Source: an uncultured Elusimicrobia bacterium (lineage in GTDB: Bacteria > Elusimicrobiota > Elusimicrobia > Elusimicrobiales > UBA9959). Taken from it: a DNA stretch of 39,868 nt. A program made the translations under genes and the position numbers. The notes beneath the pieces are model-generated. The model did not search any database. It was not told the origin of the DNA and was given only the letters and a program-made list of their open reading frames with translations. The DNA is taken from NCBI GenBank assembly GCA_903873295.1, contig CAIQNV010000065.1:1-39868 (forward strand), in the 5' to 3' direction. Shown here one piece after another: positions 7,275-36,801 of the stretch (position 1 is the stretch's first letter; the number at the start of each line of letters is the position of its first letter).

Positions 7275-8810
7275 CTAATATCCGATAGCAATATATCGGA
7301 CCGTTGTGGCATAGGTGCCGCCGTTGACCGCTCCGTATTGGAAGGTAAAACCGGAAGTTGTTATAGCTGTAATGGGGGCGTATGTCACGGTGGTGCCGGT
7401 CCCCACTGTATTGCCGACGCCCTGAACCACCTGCAGGGTGGCATTCGGGAACACGATCGGGAACGACGGGGAATATGAGCTGCCATGCGCCATGGTGGCC
7501 GTATAGGAACCCCACTGGATGATCAGGCCGCCCATATTCGCGTAGCCGCTGCCCGCCAGACTTTGAGCGGCCCAGCTTGCGGCTTTCAGGCTGCCTCCCA
7601 CATAAACATTGTTAGTGAAACTATTCCCCTGCGCCAGCACATATGCGTCTATTGCGGTTTTCGCCGTGACGGTCCAGTCGCCGCCGGCGAGCTTGGGGGA
7701 GGTCGTGGAATAATCCTGGACATTAACAAGTCCTTTCGCAGACCGATAGTTATACGTTGTCCCGCCGCCCCTGAGCCAGATCACAAATCCGTTATTGCAG
7801 CCCGGAGCGGTCTGATAGCCCCCTATGAACGGGACAGTGCCGTAATAATTGTAATCCATGTTGATAAAGCTCGCGGCATGGCCGCAGTTCGTCGAATGGT
7901 TCATGAATTTACTTTGCAGCGCCCCTCTCCAGGTGGAATCCGTATGCACATCCGAGCGCGTCAATTCTATTTCCGTGACACCGTCGCTCCATCTGGGCTC
8001 GGTAAAGTAAACCGGGTAAAAAGTGTTAAAATCCCCTCCGACGTTAAAAGAACTCACTTCCGGGCTGGACCGGAGCGAAGAGGCGTTTAAAGTTCCCGCC
8101 ACATCAAGCTTATACGCCGGACCCGTAGTTCCTATCCCGACATTGCCGTTGTTAAATCTTACCTGCTCCACTCCGCTGGCATTAAAGAACTGGTGCACCC
8201 CGCCGCCGCTGAATATCGCCGACCCGACAACGCTGCCTTCGCCGTTAGGTCTTAATTGAATAGTCGAACTTGCCGCTCCCGTGTTCATGAATATATCGGA
8301 GCCGTTCGATGTCCAGCTGCCGGGCGCCGTGCCGCCGACTCCCAAAGAGCCCGACACATGAAGCGCCCTGAGCGGAGCCGTGGTCCCGATGCCGACGCTG
8401 CCGCCGCTGAAGTAGCTGTTCCCGCTCGCCAGGATAGAGACCTGGTTGACGCCGCCGCTGTTAAGCGCGAGCTGCCCGCTATCGTTGGCCGCGGAGGTGC
8501 CGACAAGGTAGCCTACCGTTGTGCCCGCCGCGTTGGTTAAAGTGATCCCGGACCATTGTGTTCCGCTCTGAACATTAAGCTTGCTGTTAGGGGCAACAGT
8601 ACCGATACCGACTTTGCCGTTTTTGACCACAAAAGTGGACTCGCCCACGGCGAAGCCGCCGCCGGGGATATCCGCGGAGCCCCTGAGCACGGTATAGCCA
8701 TCCACCGATAATTTATCCAGCACTTCAAATTCTGCGGCGGACGACGCTCCTCCCGCGAGGAGCGGCCCTATGATCAAAAGTTTCTTAATGACGCTCGTCA
8801 TATTTGCCAT
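7275..8810 (-). CDS. Secreted tail-fibre-like repeat protein 3, gp53-like tip
   Basis: A 511-residue exported protein. A signal peptide (about 1-25) precedes a module shared with its two neighbours: Ala-Glu-Phe-Glu-Val-Leu-Asp-Lys-Leu-Ser-Val-Asp-Gly-Tyr, then a Gly-rich stretch. Repeated V-G-I-G-T-x-x-P-x-x-x-L motifs (three copies, about residues 65, 140 and 225) are typical of phage tail-fibre and adhesin shafts. The last 85 residues (Gly-Gly-Leu-Ile-Ile-Gln-Trp-Gly to a terminal Ile-Ala-Ile-Gly-Tyr) look like the phage gp53-like tail-fibre tip domain, which usually trimerises and binds receptors. Expected location is the cell surface. It is the last of three tandem paralogues, 40 bases after the preceding one. 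Target and carrier are unknown. Confidence 0.8.
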   Translation of the reverse strand: MANMTSVIKKLLIIGPLLAGGASSAAEFEVLDKLSVDGYTVLRGSADIPGGGFAVGESTFVVKNGKVGIGTVAPNSKLNVQSGTQWSGITLTNAAGTTVGYLVGTSAANDSGQLALNSGGVNQVSILASGNSYFSGGSVGIGTTAPLRALHVSGSLGVGGTAPGSWTSNGSDIFMNTGAASSTIQLRPNGEGSVVGSAIFSGGGVHQFFNASGVEQVRFNNGNVGIGTTGPAYKLDVAGTLNASSLRSSPEVSSFNVGGDFNTFYPVYFTEPRWSDGVTEIELTRSDVHTDSTWRGALQSKFMNHSTNCGHAASFINMDYNYYGTVPFIGGYQTAPGCNNGFVIWLRGGGTTYNYRSAKGLVNVQDYSTTSPKLAGGDWTVTAKTAIDAYVLAQGNSFTNNVYVGGSLKAASWAAQSLAGSGYANMGGLIIQWGSYTATMAHGSSYSPSFPIVFPNATLQVVQGVGNTVGTGTTVTYAPITAITTSGFTFQYGAVNGGTYATTVRYIAIGY

Positions 8811-8850
8811 GTAAAAACCCGGACTCTGCGCTTTGCTCCGCTCCGCACGG

Positions 8851-10125
8851 CTAATATAGATATACCACGTTCGCCTGCGCGCCGCTTAGATCGGTAGTTA
8901 TGCCTATCGGTGACGTTATTCTGACAGTAATACTGTAATAGGCAGGAACGGTTATAGCGAGATCGCGGTAATAATAGACTCCGCTGACCTGCGTAGCCGC
9001 TCCCCAGACCGGCAGTTGGGCACCGCCGATCTTTGTGAGGATATCCGCCGTATTTCCGCTGTATCCGTATCTCGCGAAATACATCCCATAATCAAACCGG
9101 CTTGCGTCGTAAGAATACGAAAATTCTTCGATCAGAATACCGCCGACGCCCCAATTCACGGAATCGTGGAATTGCCGCAAGATATTGAACGCGGCGGGGG
9201 CGGCTCCCGCGTTGATCGTTCTGACATACGTTGTTAAACTTCCCTGCCTGACCGTGCCCTGCACATCCAGCTTCGCCGCCGGGCTCGCCGTCCCGATGCC
9301 GACATTGCCGGTTCTTGTTAATCTCATTCCTTCTGAACCCGCGGCAGAAAGACCAAGATAAGAACCTACACCATCATCACCAAAGAATAAACCGGCGTTA
9401 TTTTCACCGCTAGAAGTGAACGATGGGGCTGCAGCAGTTCCGTTTAGAGATCGAATCTGTCCATTTACATCCAATTTGGACCCCGGCGCCGCCGTCCCGA
9501 TGCCGATATTGCCGTCTCCTCGGATATAGAAGACAGATGTCCCGCCCGCCTTCGCGTTGATAAGCCCGAAATCCGTATATCCGCCTACACTGCCTTTTTG
9601 ATTAAGGAGAATGTCCGTATTTATCGCTCCGTCCGTTATTCTGAAATGGGCCTGCTGAAGACTTGATAAACCAGTGTAGCTGGCCTGGGCATGCAGTTGG
9701 GAATCCGGAGCCGTAGTCCCGATGCCGAGCATCCCTCCGTGCGGCTGCAGCGCCAGGGCGCGGTAGGTGTTTTCATCCGCCGACTCTATCGCGTAAACGT
9801 TCCCGCCGTAATTCCAGAGATTAAGATAGTCCAGCGCCGCGGCGTTGCGGAGAATTATGCCGGCCGCGCCTACATCGGCGCTGACCGCGTTATCATTGAT
9901 CTGCAGTTTTGAAACTGGCCCGGTCGTCCCGATGCCGACCTTGCCGTCTTTGACCACAAGCGTGGACGTCCCCACGGCGAAGCTGCCGCCGGGGATATCG
10001 GCGGAGCCCCTGAGCACCGTGTAGCCGTCGACCGATAATTTATCCAGCACCTCGAATTCGGCCGCATGGAGCGCCGGCACCCCCAGGAAAGGGGCTAGAA
10101 ATAAAAATTTCTTAATACCGCTCAT
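8851..10125 (-). CDS. Secreted tail-fibre-like repeat protein 2
   Basis: About 424 residues from the ATG at 10125. The open frame extends to 10158, but the internal Met gives a clean signal peptide (Met-Ser-Gly-Ile-Lys-Lys, cleaved near Leu-His-Ala). The shared Glu-Phe-Glu-Val-Leu-Asp-Lys module follows, then four V/I/L-G-I-G-T-x-x-P shaft motifs. One segment (about residues 215-270) matches a module widespread in phage tail fibres: Ala-Ala-Pro-Ser-Phe, an Asn-x-Gly-Leu-Phe-Phe strand, Ser-Glu-Gly-Met-Arg-Leu, then Gly-Asn-Val-Gly-Ile-Gly. The C-terminal 110 residues are unlike those of the flanking paralogues and probably form a separate tip domain. The DNA of the matching segment has different codon use (see findings). 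Confidence 0.78.
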   Translation of the reverse strand: MSGIKKFLFLAPFLGVPALHAAEFEVLDKLSVDGYTVLRGSADIPGGSFAVGTSTLVVKDGKVGIGTTGPVSKLQINDNAVSADVGAAGIILRNAAALDYLNLWNYGGNVYAIESADENTYRALALQPHGGMLGIGTTAPDSQLHAQASYTGLSSLQQAHFRITDGAINTDILLNQKGSVGGYTDFGLINAKAGGTSVFYIRGDGNIGIGTAAPGSKLDVNGQIRSLNGTAAAPSFTSSGENNAGLFFGDDGVGSYLGLSAAGSEGMRLTRTGNVGIGTASPAAKLDVQGTVRQGSLTTYVRTINAGAAPAAFNILRQFHDSVNWGVGGILIEEFSYSYDASRFDYGMYFARYGYSGNTADILTKIGGAQLPVWGAATQVSGVYYYRDLAITVPAYYSITVRITSPIGITTDLSGAQANVVYLY

Positions 10126-10190
10126 AAGATAAACCGTCGCCCGGGTATAGATAAACAAAAATTCCGCCGCGTTTCCTGTCGGAACGCCCG

Positions 10191-11630
10191 TTAAAACAGC
10201 TTAATGGCCTTCCATGCTATGGCGACCGGGGCGCTCAGCGTCTCGGTGACCGCCATCTGCACATAAGACTTCCCGTCGACCGAGGAGAGCGTTGCAAGAT
10301 AGCGGAAGCTTATTATTCTGCCGTTGGTCGCGTGTCCGCCATTGGTCGAATGGATCTCCACGGTGTCATTCCCGTTAGTATTCCCATATAAGGATGCCTG
10401 AAATACGGCCGTTTGGCTGTACATGGCGCCGCCCACGGAGTAAGTCGACAAAGGCCCGACCTGGACCAGAAAGGTCCCGGTCCCTACATCGGCGCTGCTG
10501 AATAAATTGAACCATGTCCCGGAGGTATATTGCGCGGTGGTGGTGCCGGAGTAATAGCCGCCGACGATCCTGTTGCCGTTAACGGCATAATTGCCCGCTA
10601 CATCCAGCTTCTCAGCCGGCGCCGTAGTCCCAATGCCCACACTGCCGCCGCTTGTGATCCTCATTGACTCGACCGCGCCGTTATTCCGGAATATTATTCC
10701 GGAACCTGAAGTTACCGCGTCCAACAGCGTGTTGGCGCCGTCATCCTTTATCCTGCCGATATGATTAGCGCCGAAATTCAGATCCCCCCTGACATCCAAC
10801 TTCCCGTCCGGACCCGTAGTCCCGATGCCGACGTTGCCGCCGGTTAATATCCTCATCTTTTCGGCGCCGCCGGAATTAAAGACCAGATCGTTGCCCGAGT
10901 TCCTGCCGTAGATCCCGGAGCCGTACAAGCCATTGCCGGAGAAAAAGATGCCGCCGTTCTGGTAGGTAAACATATCGCTGCCGAATAAAGCCGTGCCGTT
11001 CACCTCCAGCCTCGCGCCGGGCGCCGTAGTGTTTATCCCGACATTGCCGGCTGAATTAACGCGCAGTCTCTCCGCCAGGGCCGACCCGCTCGTGGTTTGA
11101 AAAGACAGATAGGAACTGGTCTGAGTGCCGCCTATACTGCCGTCCGCCGCGGCCAGGATCTTCGCCCCGATCTGAGCCGCTCCCGCGGTCGGCTGCGACG
11201 GGTAGAAGCCTATCTCGCCCCAGACGCTGTCGGCCGCCCAGGCGGTATTATCCCTCTGGATATTGTAAAAATTAAATCTGCCCCCATTGCTTCCGCCAAC
11301 GCCCACCGCCCTGATATCCTGATGCTCGAGTCGGATCTCGGGCATCCCCGCTGCGGCTCCCGCGTCCTCGCGCCTGAACAGGTGAAGCTGAGCGGCCGGG
11401 GACGCGATCCCGAAGCCGGCCTTTCCGTCCTTAACCGCAAAAGTGGACGCCCCCACGGCGAAACTGCCGCCCGGGATATCCGCGGAGCCCCTGAGCACCG
11501 TGTAGCCGTCGACCGATAATTTATCGAGCACTTCAAATTCTGCGGCCCGGGCGCAGGGTATTACAGCGCATAGAAAAAGCCAGATTACGGCTTTTGGCCT
11601 TGCCCGCTGAGGAAGATCGGCGCCTTTCAT
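10191..11630 (-). CDS. Secreted tail-fibre-like repeat protein 1
   Basis: About 479 residues from the ATG at 11630. The frame is open to 11741, but the upstream part has no family match. The signal peptide ends near Ala-Arg-Ala, followed directly by the shared Ala-Glu-Phe-Glu-Val-Leu-Asp-Lys module. The shaft has four G-x-V/A-G-I/F-G/N-T/I-x-x-P motifs alternating with Glu-Lys/Glu-Arg-Met/Leu-Arg-Ile/Val strands, as in phage fibres. The C-terminal about 130 residues (from Gly-Gly-Tyr-Tyr-Ser-Gly-Thr-Thr) are a beta-rich tip unlike the tips of the two downstream paralogues. It is the first gene of the tandem trio. No capsid, baseplate or tail-tube gene is nearby, so a chromosomal surface adhesin is more likely than a prophage fibre. 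Confidence 0.78.
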   Translation of the reverse strand: MKGADLPQRARPKAVIWLFLCAVIPCARAAEFEVLDKLSVDGYTVLRGSADIPGGSFAVGASTFAVKDGKAGFGIASPAAQLHLFRREDAGAAAGMPEIRLEHQDIRAVGVGGSNGGRFNFYNIQRDNTAWAADSVWGEIGFYPSQPTAGAAQIGAKILAAADGSIGGTQTSSYLSFQTTSGSALAERLRVNSAGNVGINTTAPGARLEVNGTALFGSDMFTYQNGGIFFSGNGLYGSGIYGRNSGNDLVFNSGGAEKMRILTGGNVGIGTTGPDGKLDVRGDLNFGANHIGRIKDDGANTLLDAVTSGSGIIFRNNGAVESMRITSGGSVGIGTTAPAEKLDVAGNYAVNGNRIVGGYYSGTTTAQYTSGTWFNLFSSADVGTGTFLVQVGPLSTYSVGGAMYSQTAVFQASLYGNTNGNDTVEIHSTNGGHATNGRIISFRYLATLSSVDGKSYVQMAVTETLSAPVAIAWKAIKLF

Positions 11631-11735
11631 AATGAGCTTATGGTCATCCCGACAGTTAGCCAAAACAAACCCGGCCCCCCGGCTTTTACACGGCGGGTGG
11701 CTTTGTACACTCGAATATTTTACACAAAAAAAACC

Positions 11736-11741
11736 CGTCAA
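11736..11741 (-). promoter_or_regulatory. Candidate -35 box of the tail-fibre-like operon
   Basis: On the minus strand this reads TTGACG, followed by a T8 run and then an A/T-rich stretch (TGTAAAATATTC) that could hold a -10. It lies about 105 bases upstream of the first fibre gene. The -10 placement is ambiguous. Confidence 0.3.
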
Positions 11742-21366: not shown

Positions 21367-23313
<1,947 letters not shown>

Positions 23314-23365
23314 AAGATTTTCACCGCGGACCTTCCGCTGTTTACGCTCAGGCCCGGCCCTTCCC

Positions 23366-24343
23366 TTAATGTCCGCCCATCGCCCGGCCGGCGCCGCGGG
23401 GGACGTTAGGCCTGGAGGGCATAAGCGGGTTGGACCCCTCGGCCTGCTGCGGCCTGTAGGTTTTCCCGGTGTACAGCACGGTGTCGCCCTCTTCCAGGCC
23501 CTTGGTCACTTCCACCAGGTCGCCCTGGTCCAGGCCGGTCTCTATCTTCCGATAGACCGGCTTCCCGTCGGTCACTTCCGTTATGACGGCCGTCCTGCCG
23601 GAGGGGTCTATGGTCACGGCGGCCGTGGGGATAAGGAGGGCGTCCCTCTTCCTGGAAACCTCGACCTTGATATTGGCGGTCATCTGCGATTTAAAGAAGG
23701 AAGGCACATTGTCGGGGCGTATCTTGACCGCGTAGGTGATGACATTGCTCTGGTTGGTTCCTTCGTCCAGTATCTGAAAAACCTTGCCGCTCACCGGCTT
23801 ATTAGGATAGGAATCCAGTACGATGGAGGCCGGCTGCCCTTCTTTTATTTTGCCCACGTCGGATTCGTCCACGTTGGCGGCCAGGATAAGCTTGTCCGAA
23901 AGGGCGAAGAGCACGGTGGACTGGCCTACGGTCTGGCCTTCCACCACGTTCTTGAGGATTATGGTGCCGTCGAGCGGCGAAAGGACCTTAATAGGCTTAT
24001 ATGTGTCCTTCCAGTGAGCGTACTGCTCGTCGCTCGTGGCGCGCGCCGCGTCAAGGATGGCCACCCGGTCCTGCGAGCTCATAAGCGCCAGCACTTCCCC
24101 GGTCTTCACGGTGTCGCCTTCCTGCACCAGTATTTCCTCTATCCTGCCGGCGGAGGGGGGGTTGATCTCCACGCGGTTCAGGGGCGCCACGGCGCCGGTG
24201 GTCTCGACGAACTCCGAGATAGGCTTTGAGACGACCTCAAAAGCGGAGTACCGGACCTCCTTCGTCCCGGTCCTGGTCTTCCAGTAATATCCGCCGCCGC
24301 CTATTATAGCGAGGGCGATAACCGCGATCAAAATTTTTTTCAT
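23366..24343 (-). CDS. macA: MacA/HlyD-type periplasmic adaptor protein
   Basis: About 325 residues. An N-terminal membrane anchor (Lys-Lys-Ile-Leu-Ile-Ala-Val, about 2-20) leads to a biotinyl-lipoyl-like domain split in two: Ala-Gly-Arg-Ile-Glu-Glu-Ile-Leu-Val-Gln-Glu-Gly-Asp, and later Ser-Pro-Leu-Asp-Gly-Thr-Ile. A beta-barrel domain and a membrane-proximal domain follow. The helical hairpin between the lipoyl halves is only about 25 residues, far shorter than in typical MacA. The ATG at 24343 is preferred to the one 12 bases upstream because GGAG is well placed for it. The tail is Pro/Gly-rich. It links MacB to the TolC-like channel encoded just upstream. Confidence 0.9.
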   Translation of the reverse strand: MKKILIAVIALAIIGGGGYYWKTRTGTKEVRYSAFEVVSKPISEFVETTGAVAPLNRVEINPPSAGRIEEILVQEGDTVKTGEVLALMSSQDRVAILDAARATSDEQYAHWKDTYKPIKVLSPLDGTIILKNVVEGQTVGQSTVLFALSDKLILAANVDESDVGKIKEGQPASIVLDSYPNKPVSGKVFQILDEGTNQSNVITYAVKIRPDNVPSFFKSQMTANIKVEVSRKRDALLIPTAAVTIDPSGRTAVITEVTDGKPVYRKIETGLDQGDLVEVTKGLEEGDTVLYTGKTYRPQQAEGSNPLMPSRPNVPRGAGRAMGGH

Positions 24344-24419
24344 AATATTCTCCATCCGAGAGGTAGTAAGCTGTCCGCTGTTGCGATGCTGCCGCTTAAA
24401 GTGCCGGGGGCGCGCCCCG

Positions 24420-25712
24420 TCATTCCCCTTCCAGGCCTACGCCGAGGTAGTTCTCCAAAGAAATTTTGCTGGTATTGGCGTCCCTGAGAAAGGCCAGCTG
24501 GTTAAGCTGGGCGGTCACCATGCCTTCTTCTATGGTCTCCAGGTCTATAAAGTTCATCTGGCCGGCCTGGTATTGTATCTGGGACTCTTTATATCTCTCC
24601 TCGTTCGCGCCGAGGATGTTGACGTTCGCGAGCGCTTTATCCTTCGCGTTCAGGAAGGAGTTGTATCCGGTAAGGATATTGCCCTCGAGAGTGTTTTTTA
24701 GGTCCCTGAGCGACTCTTCGCCGCTTTTGAGCGCCCAGTTCGCGGCTTTGGTGTTATAGGAAGTTATATTGCTGTAATTGAAGAGGGGCAGCCCGAGGCT
24801 CAGCCCCAGCGACCAGCCCCGGTTGCCGGGAAATTCGCTGCTTCCGGACCATCTCATGGACTGGCTGGCGGACAAAGTAGGATACAGGTCGAACTTGGCC
24901 GAAAGCAGCCGTTCCTTCAGGCTCTCGACGCTTTTTACCTGCAGAACCACCTGCGGGATATTTTCAATGAGCTTTTTAATGTCCCCGGCGGCAAGGGAAT
25001 ACTCCGGGGCCGCCAGCGCGGCTTTGGCGACGATAGGCCGGAACTCGGAAAAGCCCATATTATTAAGGAGGTCCTGGCGGGCGCTGTTGAGGCTGCGCTC
25101 GGCCTGGCGGACATTGGCTTTTGACTGTTCGGCCAGGGCGGCGGTGTAGAGCATATTGCCGCGCGATTCCCTGCCGCTGTCGTACTTCAGCTTTATAAGA
25201 TCGGAGTTATGCTGCCGGGTGACAAGGACCTTGTTCTGCACGGCCACGTTCTCCTGCGCGTAGACGAGGCCGACAAAAGAGGAATAGAGGGCCTGCCTCA
25301 GGCTGGCCGATTCGGTCCTGTAGCCGGCGTAGGCCTGGTCGTAGGTTATCTTCGAGCTTCTTATGGAGGAGAGGACCTTGAGGTCGAAGAGGGTCTCGCT
25401 GGCCGTCACGCCGGCGCTTACGCTGTTGGAGGGGGAAGAAGAATCCGACCCGCTCCTGCCTATGGAATGGGAGAGGCTCACTGACGGCAGAGCGCCGTTA
25501 TAGCTGGCCAGATAACTGTACCGGCTCTGCTCTATGGCCAGCTTTTTGGCCTTGAGCCCCGGATTGTTGTTCAGGGCCGCGCGGGCGCAGTCCTGCCAGG
25601 AAAGCTCCAGGGGGAGATCGGCGGCCGCGGCCGCTCCGGCGGCCAGCAGTAAAACGACAGGGAACGAGAGGAGTTTTTTGTAAATGGTCATATGTTTATG
25701 AAGAAGCGGCAT
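24420..25712 (-). CDS. TolC-like outer-membrane efflux protein
   Basis: A 430-residue outer-membrane factor. The signal peptide (hydrophobic core about 15-30, ending Ala-Ala-Ala-Ala-Asp) precedes the typical opening Leu-Ser-Trp-Gln-Asp-Cys-Ala-Arg-Ala-Ala-Leu-Asn-Asn-Asn-Pro. Two long coiled-coil helical OEP repeats follow, with the Tyr-Gln-Ala-Gly-Gln-Met-Asn-Phe-Ile-Asp-Leu motif near the end. It forms a trimeric outer-membrane and periplasmic tunnel. The Cys in the opening helix is not in a lipobox, so it is not a lipoprotein. An internal Met at codon 8 (25691) is an equally possible start. It heads the efflux operon, 76 bases before macA. Confidence 0.9.
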   Translation of the reverse strand: MPLLHKHMTIYKKLLSFPVVLLLAAGAAAAADLPLELSWQDCARAALNNNPGLKAKKLAIEQSRYSYLASYNGALPSVSLSHSIGRSGSDSSSPSNSVSAGVTASETLFDLKVLSSIRSSKITYDQAYAGYRTESASLRQALYSSFVGLVYAQENVAVQNKVLVTRQHNSDLIKLKYDSGRESRGNMLYTAALAEQSKANVRQAERSLNSARQDLLNNMGFSEFRPIVAKAALAAPEYSLAAGDIKKLIENIPQVVLQVKSVESLKERLLSAKFDLYPTLSASQSMRWSGSSEFPGNRGWSLGLSLGLPLFNYSNITSYNTKAANWALKSGEESLRDLKNTLEGNILTGYNSFLNAKDKALANVNILGANEERYKESQIQYQAGQMNFIDLETIEEGMVTAQLNQLAFLRDANTSKISLENYLGVGLEGE

Positions 25713-35779: not shown

Positions 35780-36751
35780 TCAGGGCATAGGGAAGTCGAA
35801 AGCCGCGGCTTCCTGCGCCACGGCATTGCAGCGCTGCCCCGCCGCGTCCGTCATCTTGGTGCTGATATAGCCCTGGACGCCCCAGGACTTGCCCCAGCTG
35901 TTGCGCATTATCCAGATGCCCTTGCCCGGAGGAAGGTTGCCGTTAGCGTCGAAAGCGGCGCCCTCGTTGTCCCACCCCACGATATTGATCATGTGGTCCA
36001 TCTCGGCGAACTTGCAGGCGTTATAAACGCCGCCGCTATAGCTCTGCCACTGACCGGCTCCCGCGGCTATGCCTATAGAAACCGGCTTGCCCGTGCTGGT
36101 CATATAAGCCTCGATATCTCTGATCGTGGGCCCGGTGGTTTTGTCTCCGATCATGAACCAGCCGGTTATATACACGGCCTTCGGAAGGCCGACCGCGCAT
36201 TTGCCTGAACCGCTCTTATAGGGGCAGGCGCTCCAGAGCGGCTGGCCGCCCGGAGTTACAAAGTCATTGGCTGAATCGAAGTAGCCGCCCTGGCAGCCGG
36301 CCGCGTAAGTAGAATTGTCCACCAGCCATTCCTGCGAGAGGCGGCCGGGATCTTTCCCCGCCAGCGCGTGCCCGTCGCGGTGCGTCGCCGTAAGGCTGAA
36401 CGCCCAGCAGCTGCCGCAGGAGCCCTGGTTCTCCACCTGGGTGAGGCTCGGGCGCAGATCAAGCGTGTTCGGGATATTGACTTTCATATCCTTGAATGAT
36501 TTCCACATGGCCGCGGGGAGGTCTTTTTTTATAAAACCCATGGCGTGCGCCACGGGCTTATTTGTTACGGTGAAGGTGAACTCCGGGAATTCCGGGGAAG
36601 AGATAGCCGGCTGGGCCGCGCCGTCCCGGGCCGCCCCGAGGAACGCGCTGAAATCCCCGCGCTGGTCGAAAGTAACATCCCTATCCGCCGCCGCGGCGTA
36701 CCCCGCCAGCGACACCACGGCAAAAACCGCCGCTATCAGTCTCTTATTCAT
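35780..36751 (-). CDS. Exported papain-family (C1A) cysteine protease
   Basis: A 323-residue protein. The ATG at 36751 is chosen because TGGAGG sits 6 bases upstream; the frame runs to an in-frame TTG at 36763. The signal peptide (1-22) ends Tyr-Ala-Ala-Ala-Ala, followed by a propeptide-like region (about 25-95) and the mature protease. Catalytic residues are complete: Gln109 and Cys115 in Gln-Gly-Ser-Cys-Gly-Ser-Cys-Trp-Ala-Phe, His253 in Met-Asp-His-Met-Ile-Asn, and Asn284 in Met-Arg-Asn-Ser-Trp-Gly. The Gly-Cys-Gln-Gly-Gly disulfide motif is present (152-156). It should digest proteins outside the cell or in the periplasm. It is monocistronic. Confidence 0.93.
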   Translation of the reverse strand: MNKRLIAAVFAVVSLAGYAAAADRDVTFDQRGDFSAFLGAARDGAAQPAISSPEFPEFTFTVTNKPVAHAMGFIKKDLPAAMWKSFKDMKVNIPNTLDLRPSLTQVENQGSCGSCWAFSLTATHRDGHALAGKDPGRLSQEWLVDNSTYAAGCQGGYFDSANDFVTPGGQPLWSACPYKSGSGKCAVGLPKAVYITGWFMIGDKTTGPTIRDIEAYMTSTGKPVSIGIAAGAGQWQSYSGGVYNACKFAEMDHMINIVGWDNEGAAFDANGNLPPGKGIWIMRNSWGKSWGVQGYISTKMTDAAGQRCNAVAQEAAAFDFPMP

Positions 36752-36801
36752 TTTGGCCTCCAAACAATAGTTAAAACAGGGCTTTTAGTTGTCCTAAGTC
36801 A

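Follow-up and report, generated by a model that had tools for sequence, protein, structure and literature searches.

A family of leader-bearing, fibre-like proteins with a common base and differing tips in an uncultured Elusimicrobia genome

Three consecutive minus-strand genes in a contig of 39,868 nucleotides from an uncultured Elusimicrobia bacterium (NCBI GenBank assembly GCA_903873295.1, contig CAIQNV010000065.1, positions 1 to 39,868; hereafter the window) encode fibre-like proteins that begin with a leader peptide and a nearly identical base module, continue into a repetitive shaft and end in three dissimilar tips. The fibre family to which these genes belong has at least 51 members in the source genome. 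With moderate confidence, and from sequence comparison, we favour the reading that the family consists of surface adhesins resembling the trimeric MAT fibres of Bdellovibrio, which share a docking base and carry interchangeable receptor-binding tips.

The common base and its copies

The open reading frames (ORFs) of the three window genes span positions 7275-8810, 8851-10158 and 10191-11741, and with the ATG starts chosen here the genes occupy 7275-8801 (gene 1, 508 amino acids), 8851-10125 (gene 2, 424 amino acids) and 10191-11630 (gene 3, 479 amino acids). Each opens with a hydrophobic, signal-peptide-like leader, recognised by eye, of 22 residues in gene 1 (8736-8801), 21 in gene 2 (10063-10125) and 29 in gene 3 (11544-11630); the leaders end in SSA, LHA and ARA, respectively, and are followed immediately by AEFEVLDKLSVDGYTVLRGSADIPGG. 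The base module that starts there comprises 49 codons (8589-8735 in gene 1, 9916-10062 in gene 2 and 11397-11543 in gene 3), and the three proteins are identical across the first 26 mature residues; taken over the whole base, identity to gene 2 is 88% for gene 1 and 84% for gene 3. The arrangement described in a sequence-only reading of the window, namely three tandem genes with a leader, a near-identical module, a GIGTTxP-type shaft and differing tips, is visible in the ORFs themselves.

With the 49-residue base of gene 2 as the query, a search of the source genome (a draft of 3,490,803 bases in 157 contigs, 89.92% complete with 1.71% contamination) returned 70 matches at E ≤ 10, 51 of them at E ≤ 1.3e-14, and phmmer identified 53 proteins among the ORFs of the fetched stretches whose match begins near the start of the base. 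Two of the 53, both at locus L042, start differently, while the other 51 consist of a leader followed by the base. A leader-like stretch precedes the base in all 51 (by eye); an in-frame Met lies 17-29 residues ahead of the base in 49, whereas a scripted search found none at that distance in L049 and L051. This recurrence of the base, 51 times in its own genome, could not be seen in the sequence-only reading of the window. The copies are distributed among 19 contigs, most densely on C151 (n = 11), C87 (n = 7) and C22 (six in a single stretch and one elsewhere), and on C40 two further, divergent genes have kept no more of the base than AEFEVVDRFSVDG. As fetched, the 51 frames amount to 85,632 bases, or 2.5% of the genome, and 46 of them reach a stop codon; of the five incomplete frames, four run into a contig end and one into the edge of a fetched stretch. 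Copies were counted via the base, so that a gene split across two contigs contributes a single count. The median mature length of the 46 complete members is 536 amino acids.

The constant part of these genes has a narrow extent. In 15-base bins over the 1035 pairs of complete members, mean DNA identity lies between 0.71 and 0.85 through codon 45 (0.82 at codons 41-45), falls to 0.56, 0.47 and 0.33 beyond it and then stays at 0.27-0.29 (0.27 by about codon 61), and the likeness of base-bearing genes is lost within ~10 codons past GIGTTxP. Mean pairwise identity of the base is 79% for protein and 78% for DNA, its difference at four-fold sites is 0.45 compared with 0.70 expected for random codons, and 13 positions (2, 3, 4, 7, 11, 13, 14, 18, 19, 28, 30, 43 and 45) are invariant in all 51 copies. 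The leaders are less alike than the base (mean protein identity 42%), and similarity of the base does not clearly track that of the leader (rho = -0.05, P = 0.06). Judged from these comparisons, the constant part is a cassette of 147 bases. Fibres of other types in the phylum share the later portion of the base (starting near residue 12 or 22), so that the element specific to this family is approximately the first 13-27 residues.

The start-codon context of the base genes also departs from that of other ORFs when the first Met of each frame is taken as the start: among the 47 base genes whose start was usable, 3 have a Shine-Dalgarno-like sequence upstream, versus 37 of 115 other ORFs, and 25 have TT before the start codon, versus 23 of the 115.

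The shaft and its likeness to Bdellovibrio MAT fibres

The shaft of gene 1 (8049-8588) carries GIGTTxP capping-loop-like motifs, the first of which forms the end of the base; the shafts of genes 2 and 3 occupy 9253-9915 and 10563-11396. When a profile of the 51 proteins was compared with 177,635 distinct Protein Data Bank (PDB) sequences, six matches were obtained at E ≤ 10, and five of these are Bdellovibrio MAT chains: 8ond (Bd2133, E = 1.7e-21), 8oml (Bd1334, 6e-13), 8ojn (Bd3182, 1.7e-10), 8on4 (Bd1334, 3.4e-7) and 8ol4 (Bd2439, 9e-7), the protein names being those given in PMC10769870. The sixth is myelin regulatory factor (E = 0.83). Searched singly, the three window proteins also match 8ond (gene 1, 1e-6; gene 2, 2e-12; gene 3, 1.7e-7). 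The capping-loop motif published in PMC10769870 corresponds here to VGx[GN]xxxPxxxL, if one free position is assumed where a symbol appears to be missing from the text. It was matched 126 times, in 47 of the 51 members, whereas 100 shuffles gave 0.1 matches on average and never more than 1. By these sequence matches, the shaft is homologous to the solved MAT chains.

Twenty-one MATs are reported for B. bacteriovorus, with a beta-rich N-terminal domain of ~130 residues behind the signal peptide (Caulton et al. 2024, PMC10769870). That paper describes tip exchange, surface display, the binding of glycan by one member and a link to prey recognition, and points to other bacteria; its main text does not name Elusimicrobia. 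The likeness extends to the leader, a conserved N-terminal part, the beta shaft, an identical capping-loop motif, the large number of paralogues and the tips, some of which are S74 ends and others diverse. There are also differences from the Bdellovibrio fibres: the present family belongs to another phylum and to a host without a known predatory life, it numbers at least 51 copies rather than 21, its members are mostly shorter (the median given above against typically ~1,000 amino acids), its constant part is the 147-base cassette, and its tips include fibrinogen-like GGGW, glycine-rich CoaZ and TIG domains. We refer to the family as MAT-like rather than as MAT because its N-terminal part is much shorter than that reported for Bdellovibrio.

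Other fibre-like frames were encountered alongside this family. The same shaft repeats recur in giant frames of 1,441-3,066 residues at L055 (on C4) and on C82, C100 and C69, and G011 contains open frames of 4,055 and 5,491 residues. A second fibre family, with a start of the DAEVKLNSNDGSTKLIVQDKDA type, occurs in the source genome and in relatives (L042 on C99, 3895-11282; L077, L119, L079 and others). Several of its members have ends like GFRCGR, which by eye we take to resemble the formylglycine-enzyme or C-type-lectin type.

Diversity and exchange of the tips

Beyond the shaft the members differ widely. Regular expressions combined with BLAST sorted the 46 complete members into glycine-rich (10), fibrinogen-like (6), S74 (4) and collar (2) classes and left 24 ungrouped. 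A Pfam scan of all 51 members found 11 families at E ≤ 0.01 (TIG 12, Gly_rich_2 11, Fibrinogen_C 5, S74 4, TIG_SUH 4, COLFI 3, Collar 2, and one each of Gp53-like, Gp10_C, PLipase_C_C and TRL), the Fibrinogen_C matches spanning only 36-57 of 221 positions, and NCBIfam added the CoaZ repeat (11), the fibrinogen-like GGGW domain (6), LIC10067 lipoprotein (2) and Soli_cterm (1). The domain of bacterial fibrinogen-like GGGW proteins (NF040941) is C-terminal in six of the 51 fibres, a likeness to those proteins, but here it ends a fibre that carries the shared base. A genome search gave five S74 matches, all within base-holding frames; the fifth lies outside the family scan, its gene being cut by the border of a fetched stretch. 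The C-terminal membrane anchor of YadA-type trimeric autotransporters is absent from the 11 Pfam families, and the C-terminal sorting domain of type IX secretion cargo from these and the four NCBIfam families. For the tip of L039 a C1q/TNF-like identity, suggested by eye, was rejected, as the tip matches no Pfam family and its match to BclA is non-significant (E = 0.71).

The relation between base and tip points to exchange. Very similar bases (four-fold difference ≤ 0.25) are found in 31 of the 1035 pairs of complete members, and the two tips belong to the same class in only one of these 31; very similar base DNA thus mostly stands beside unrelated tips (30 of 31 pairs), which argues that tips were exchanged and did not slowly diverge. 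For example, the base modules of the neighbours L038:4888 and L038:6801 do not differ in their first 90 bases, while BLAST places the two tips in separate clusters. Together with the 51 leader-preceded copies, this bears out the proposal of the sequence-only reading that the window genes belong to a chromosomal set of fibres with a common base and exchangeable ends. Base DNA identity is also higher in the 30 adjacent pairs (0.818) than in other pairs (0.774), a difference reached in none of 5000 permutations. These patterns fit gene conversion of the base as well as duplication of whole genes with later replacement of the tip. Homogenisation of the base within arrays was rejected as a general account, being clear for adjacent pairs and not significant over all same-array pairs.

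Many copies, a conserved common base and variable, exchanged ends would also be expected if the variety itself were the function, as in an antigen-like coat or a phage decoy that does not act by binding. Each member, however, has its own leader, and the open frames that reach a stop in 46 of 51 members are unlike silent cassettes; the genome further contains no RVT_1 match and hence no sign of a diversity-generating retroelement, which was rejected as the source of the variation. We therefore regard surface variation of this kind as very improbable.

Some tips raise the question of a phage origin. In gene 1 the shaft is followed by a middle domain (7587-8048), whose start matches phrog_10758 and which is common to the fibre at L050:3509-4924 (29.6% identity over 162 residues, E = 1.8e-10), and the tip (7278-7532) is the gp53-like tail-fibre end that had been recognised from the sequence: it matches Pfam Gp53-like_C (E = 2.4e-13) and the R1-type pyocin fibre 6cxb (E = 0.001), even though tblastn at E ≤ 1e-3 found no phage record for it. 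The tip of gene 3 (10194-10562) resembles part of Vibrio phage tail fibres, with 37 such records matched (best rows 31.9% identity, best E = 5e-4) and no relative in viral contigs or in 333 other Elusimicrobiota genomes, while that of gene 2 (8854-9252) has no match in phages, viral contigs or the same 333 genomes. Many members match PHROG tail-fibre families, among them phrog_9942, matched by 32 of the 51, and tips as well as shaft parts are homologous to those of phage tail fibres and R-type pyocin fibres (Gp53-like_C, Collar, Gp10_C, S74). The fibres could on these grounds be prophage or tailocin remnants or domesticated parts that belong to a phage-tail-like particle.

To that explanation we give very little credence. 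Unlike phage and pyocin fibres, the present proteins have leader peptides (by eye in all 51 copies), no tail genes were found beside the window genes among the other window ORFs scanned, and the copies are scattered over 19 contigs. No phage or injection-system family was found in the 27 other window ORFs scanned (seven at E ≤ 1 and 20 at E ≤ 1e-5, of which seven gave no family at all), out of a window listing of 115 ORFs of at least 80 residues, many of them overlapping; for this part of the ORFs the earlier statement that no such gene is near holds. The neighbours of the fibre genes in the window are SDF, STAS, PHO4 and MutS genes. Occurrence of the base only in prophages, an outcome that the sequence-only reading had itself raised against its proposal, was not what we found: at the sensitivity used, relatives of the base were absent from viral contigs (in a pattern-based search, 10 stretches matched the pattern and none encoded a relative) and from 50,697 phage records. 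On the window ORFs, viral contigs and phage records covered, prophage origin was accordingly rejected as the main account of the family. Elsewhere in the window, a papain-family cysteine protease ORF (35780-36763, Pfam E = 3.2e-39) and consecutive MacB-type ABC transporter, HlyD-like and outer-membrane efflux ORFs (21367-25712) were noted.

Distribution and probable role of the fibres

The base is most abundant by far in its own genome. In a scan of 340 Elusimicrobiota genomes, with no more than 20 candidates scored in each so that counts for other genomes could be low, the base was matched at E ≤ 1e-9 in 21, with 20 matches in the source genome and 0-4 in each of the other 339 (1-4 in the 20 that match). 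When all candidates were scored for the source genome and 40 relatives, 10 of the 41 reached E ≤ 1e-6, the relatives among these ten having 1-4 copies each, and the AEFEV-type starts of the relatives follow a leader-like stretch (by eye). A scan of named genomes gave 32 loci, the best 22 from Elusimicrobia or Elusimicrobiota assemblies and 10 weaker ones from other groups, which match mostly the shaft half in the profile search.

The sister species G003 has two damaged-looking copies of this base, and its best copy is 67% identical; a third base type, QTELGVKDDLSVFG, is present there in 11 copies (for example at L124, L125, L127, L134 and L137). Among 25 genomes searched, this third type has 1-5 copies in seven others and none in the source genome. 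G003 also has tips related to those of L040 (77% over 363 residues, including shaft) and of L039 (66% over 166 residues), in frames that are cut and therefore do not show their base. Many G003 contigs end inside fibre genes, and its fibre number is thus probably underestimated.

The MAT-like reading of the family may be put as follows. A leader peptide would export each fibre chain, and the constant mature N-terminus (AEFEVxDRxSVDGY) together with the first turn of the shaft would most likely dock the fibre at one common site on the cell surface. The GIGTTxP repeats, homologous to solved MAT trimers, would form a trimeric beta shaft, and the C-terminal tips, several of which are phage tail-fibre-like or lectin-like, would be interchangeable receptor-binding heads gained by recombination. 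The combined repertoire could then allow one cell to bind many surfaces or glycans, most plausibly those of other cells.

Several observations weigh against this proposal. The constant part, which stands directly behind the leader in all 51 copies, is 49 residues long as against the ~130 given for Bdellovibrio in PMC10769870, and the leader and base of gene 3 (86 residues) matched no PDB sequence at E ≤ 10. No anchor gene was identified, nor any conserved partner gene such as the sequence-only reading had suggested looking for, when the gene maps of 26 stretches were inspected visually, a weak test in which the first 45 residues of each neighbour were considered. Monomer predictions from single sequences gave a mean pLDDT of 45.1 for the tip of gene 2 and 40.5 for that of gene 3, values too low to bear on the lack of a trimeric or tip fold that the sequence-only reading had named as its other refuting outcome. 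The bases of same-array pairs do not differ significantly from others at four-fold sites (0.430 versus 0.452, as reached in 199 of 2000 permutations), and the draft state of the assembly (157 contigs, 89.92% complete) makes the copy number and some gene ends uncertain. Finally, attachment to particles or kin would leave an identical sequence pattern.

This last point leads to the chief rival, according to which the fibres attach the cell to inert surfaces, to a biofilm matrix, to polysaccharide of plants or algae, or to kin cells, and not to prey or host cells. The glycine-rich or CoaZ-type domains in 11 members and the TIG domains in 12 fit general extracellular adhesion, and the data identify no prey; the breadth of the tips, phage receptor-binding ends included, suggests on the other hand many cell-surface targets, and the closest solved relatives, the Bdellovibrio MATs, are linked to prey recognition in PMC10769870. 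We consider attachment to such surfaces clearly less probable, and prefer the recognition of other cells by MAT-like adhesins because of the types of tip and the MAT precedent. Given their likeness to the prey-recognising fibres of Bdellovibrio, the present fibres may be a means of gripping many kinds of target.

A more specific and decidedly tentative version is that the first 13-14 mature residues (AEFEVxDRxSVDGY) may act as a docking tag for a single socket on the surface, into which the lineage plugs new tips, with tag and tips evolving separately. Since G003 has expanded another tag (QTELGVKDDLSVFG) and owns related tips, tag and tips would be exchangeable parts. If this were true, Elusimicrobiota that live freely would recognise other cells by contact, perhaps as predators or epibionts, and would do so with a larger set of such fibres than B. 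bacteriovorus, for which PMC10769870 reports 21.

Among the literature matches listed on fibres, adhesins, predation and MATs, none described a base-sharing fibre family of Elusimicrobiota. MAT fibres were characterised in one predatory bacterium (PMC10769870), and the more than 50 copies found here suggest that swappable recognition fibres may be a wider bacterial strategy. The short base narrows the candidate docking element to a few dozen residues, which makes attachment to the organism's own cell directly testable, and the tips offer a ready library of candidate binding domains. For the Elusimicrobiota themselves, the expansion of the family hints at a lifestyle of cell contact.

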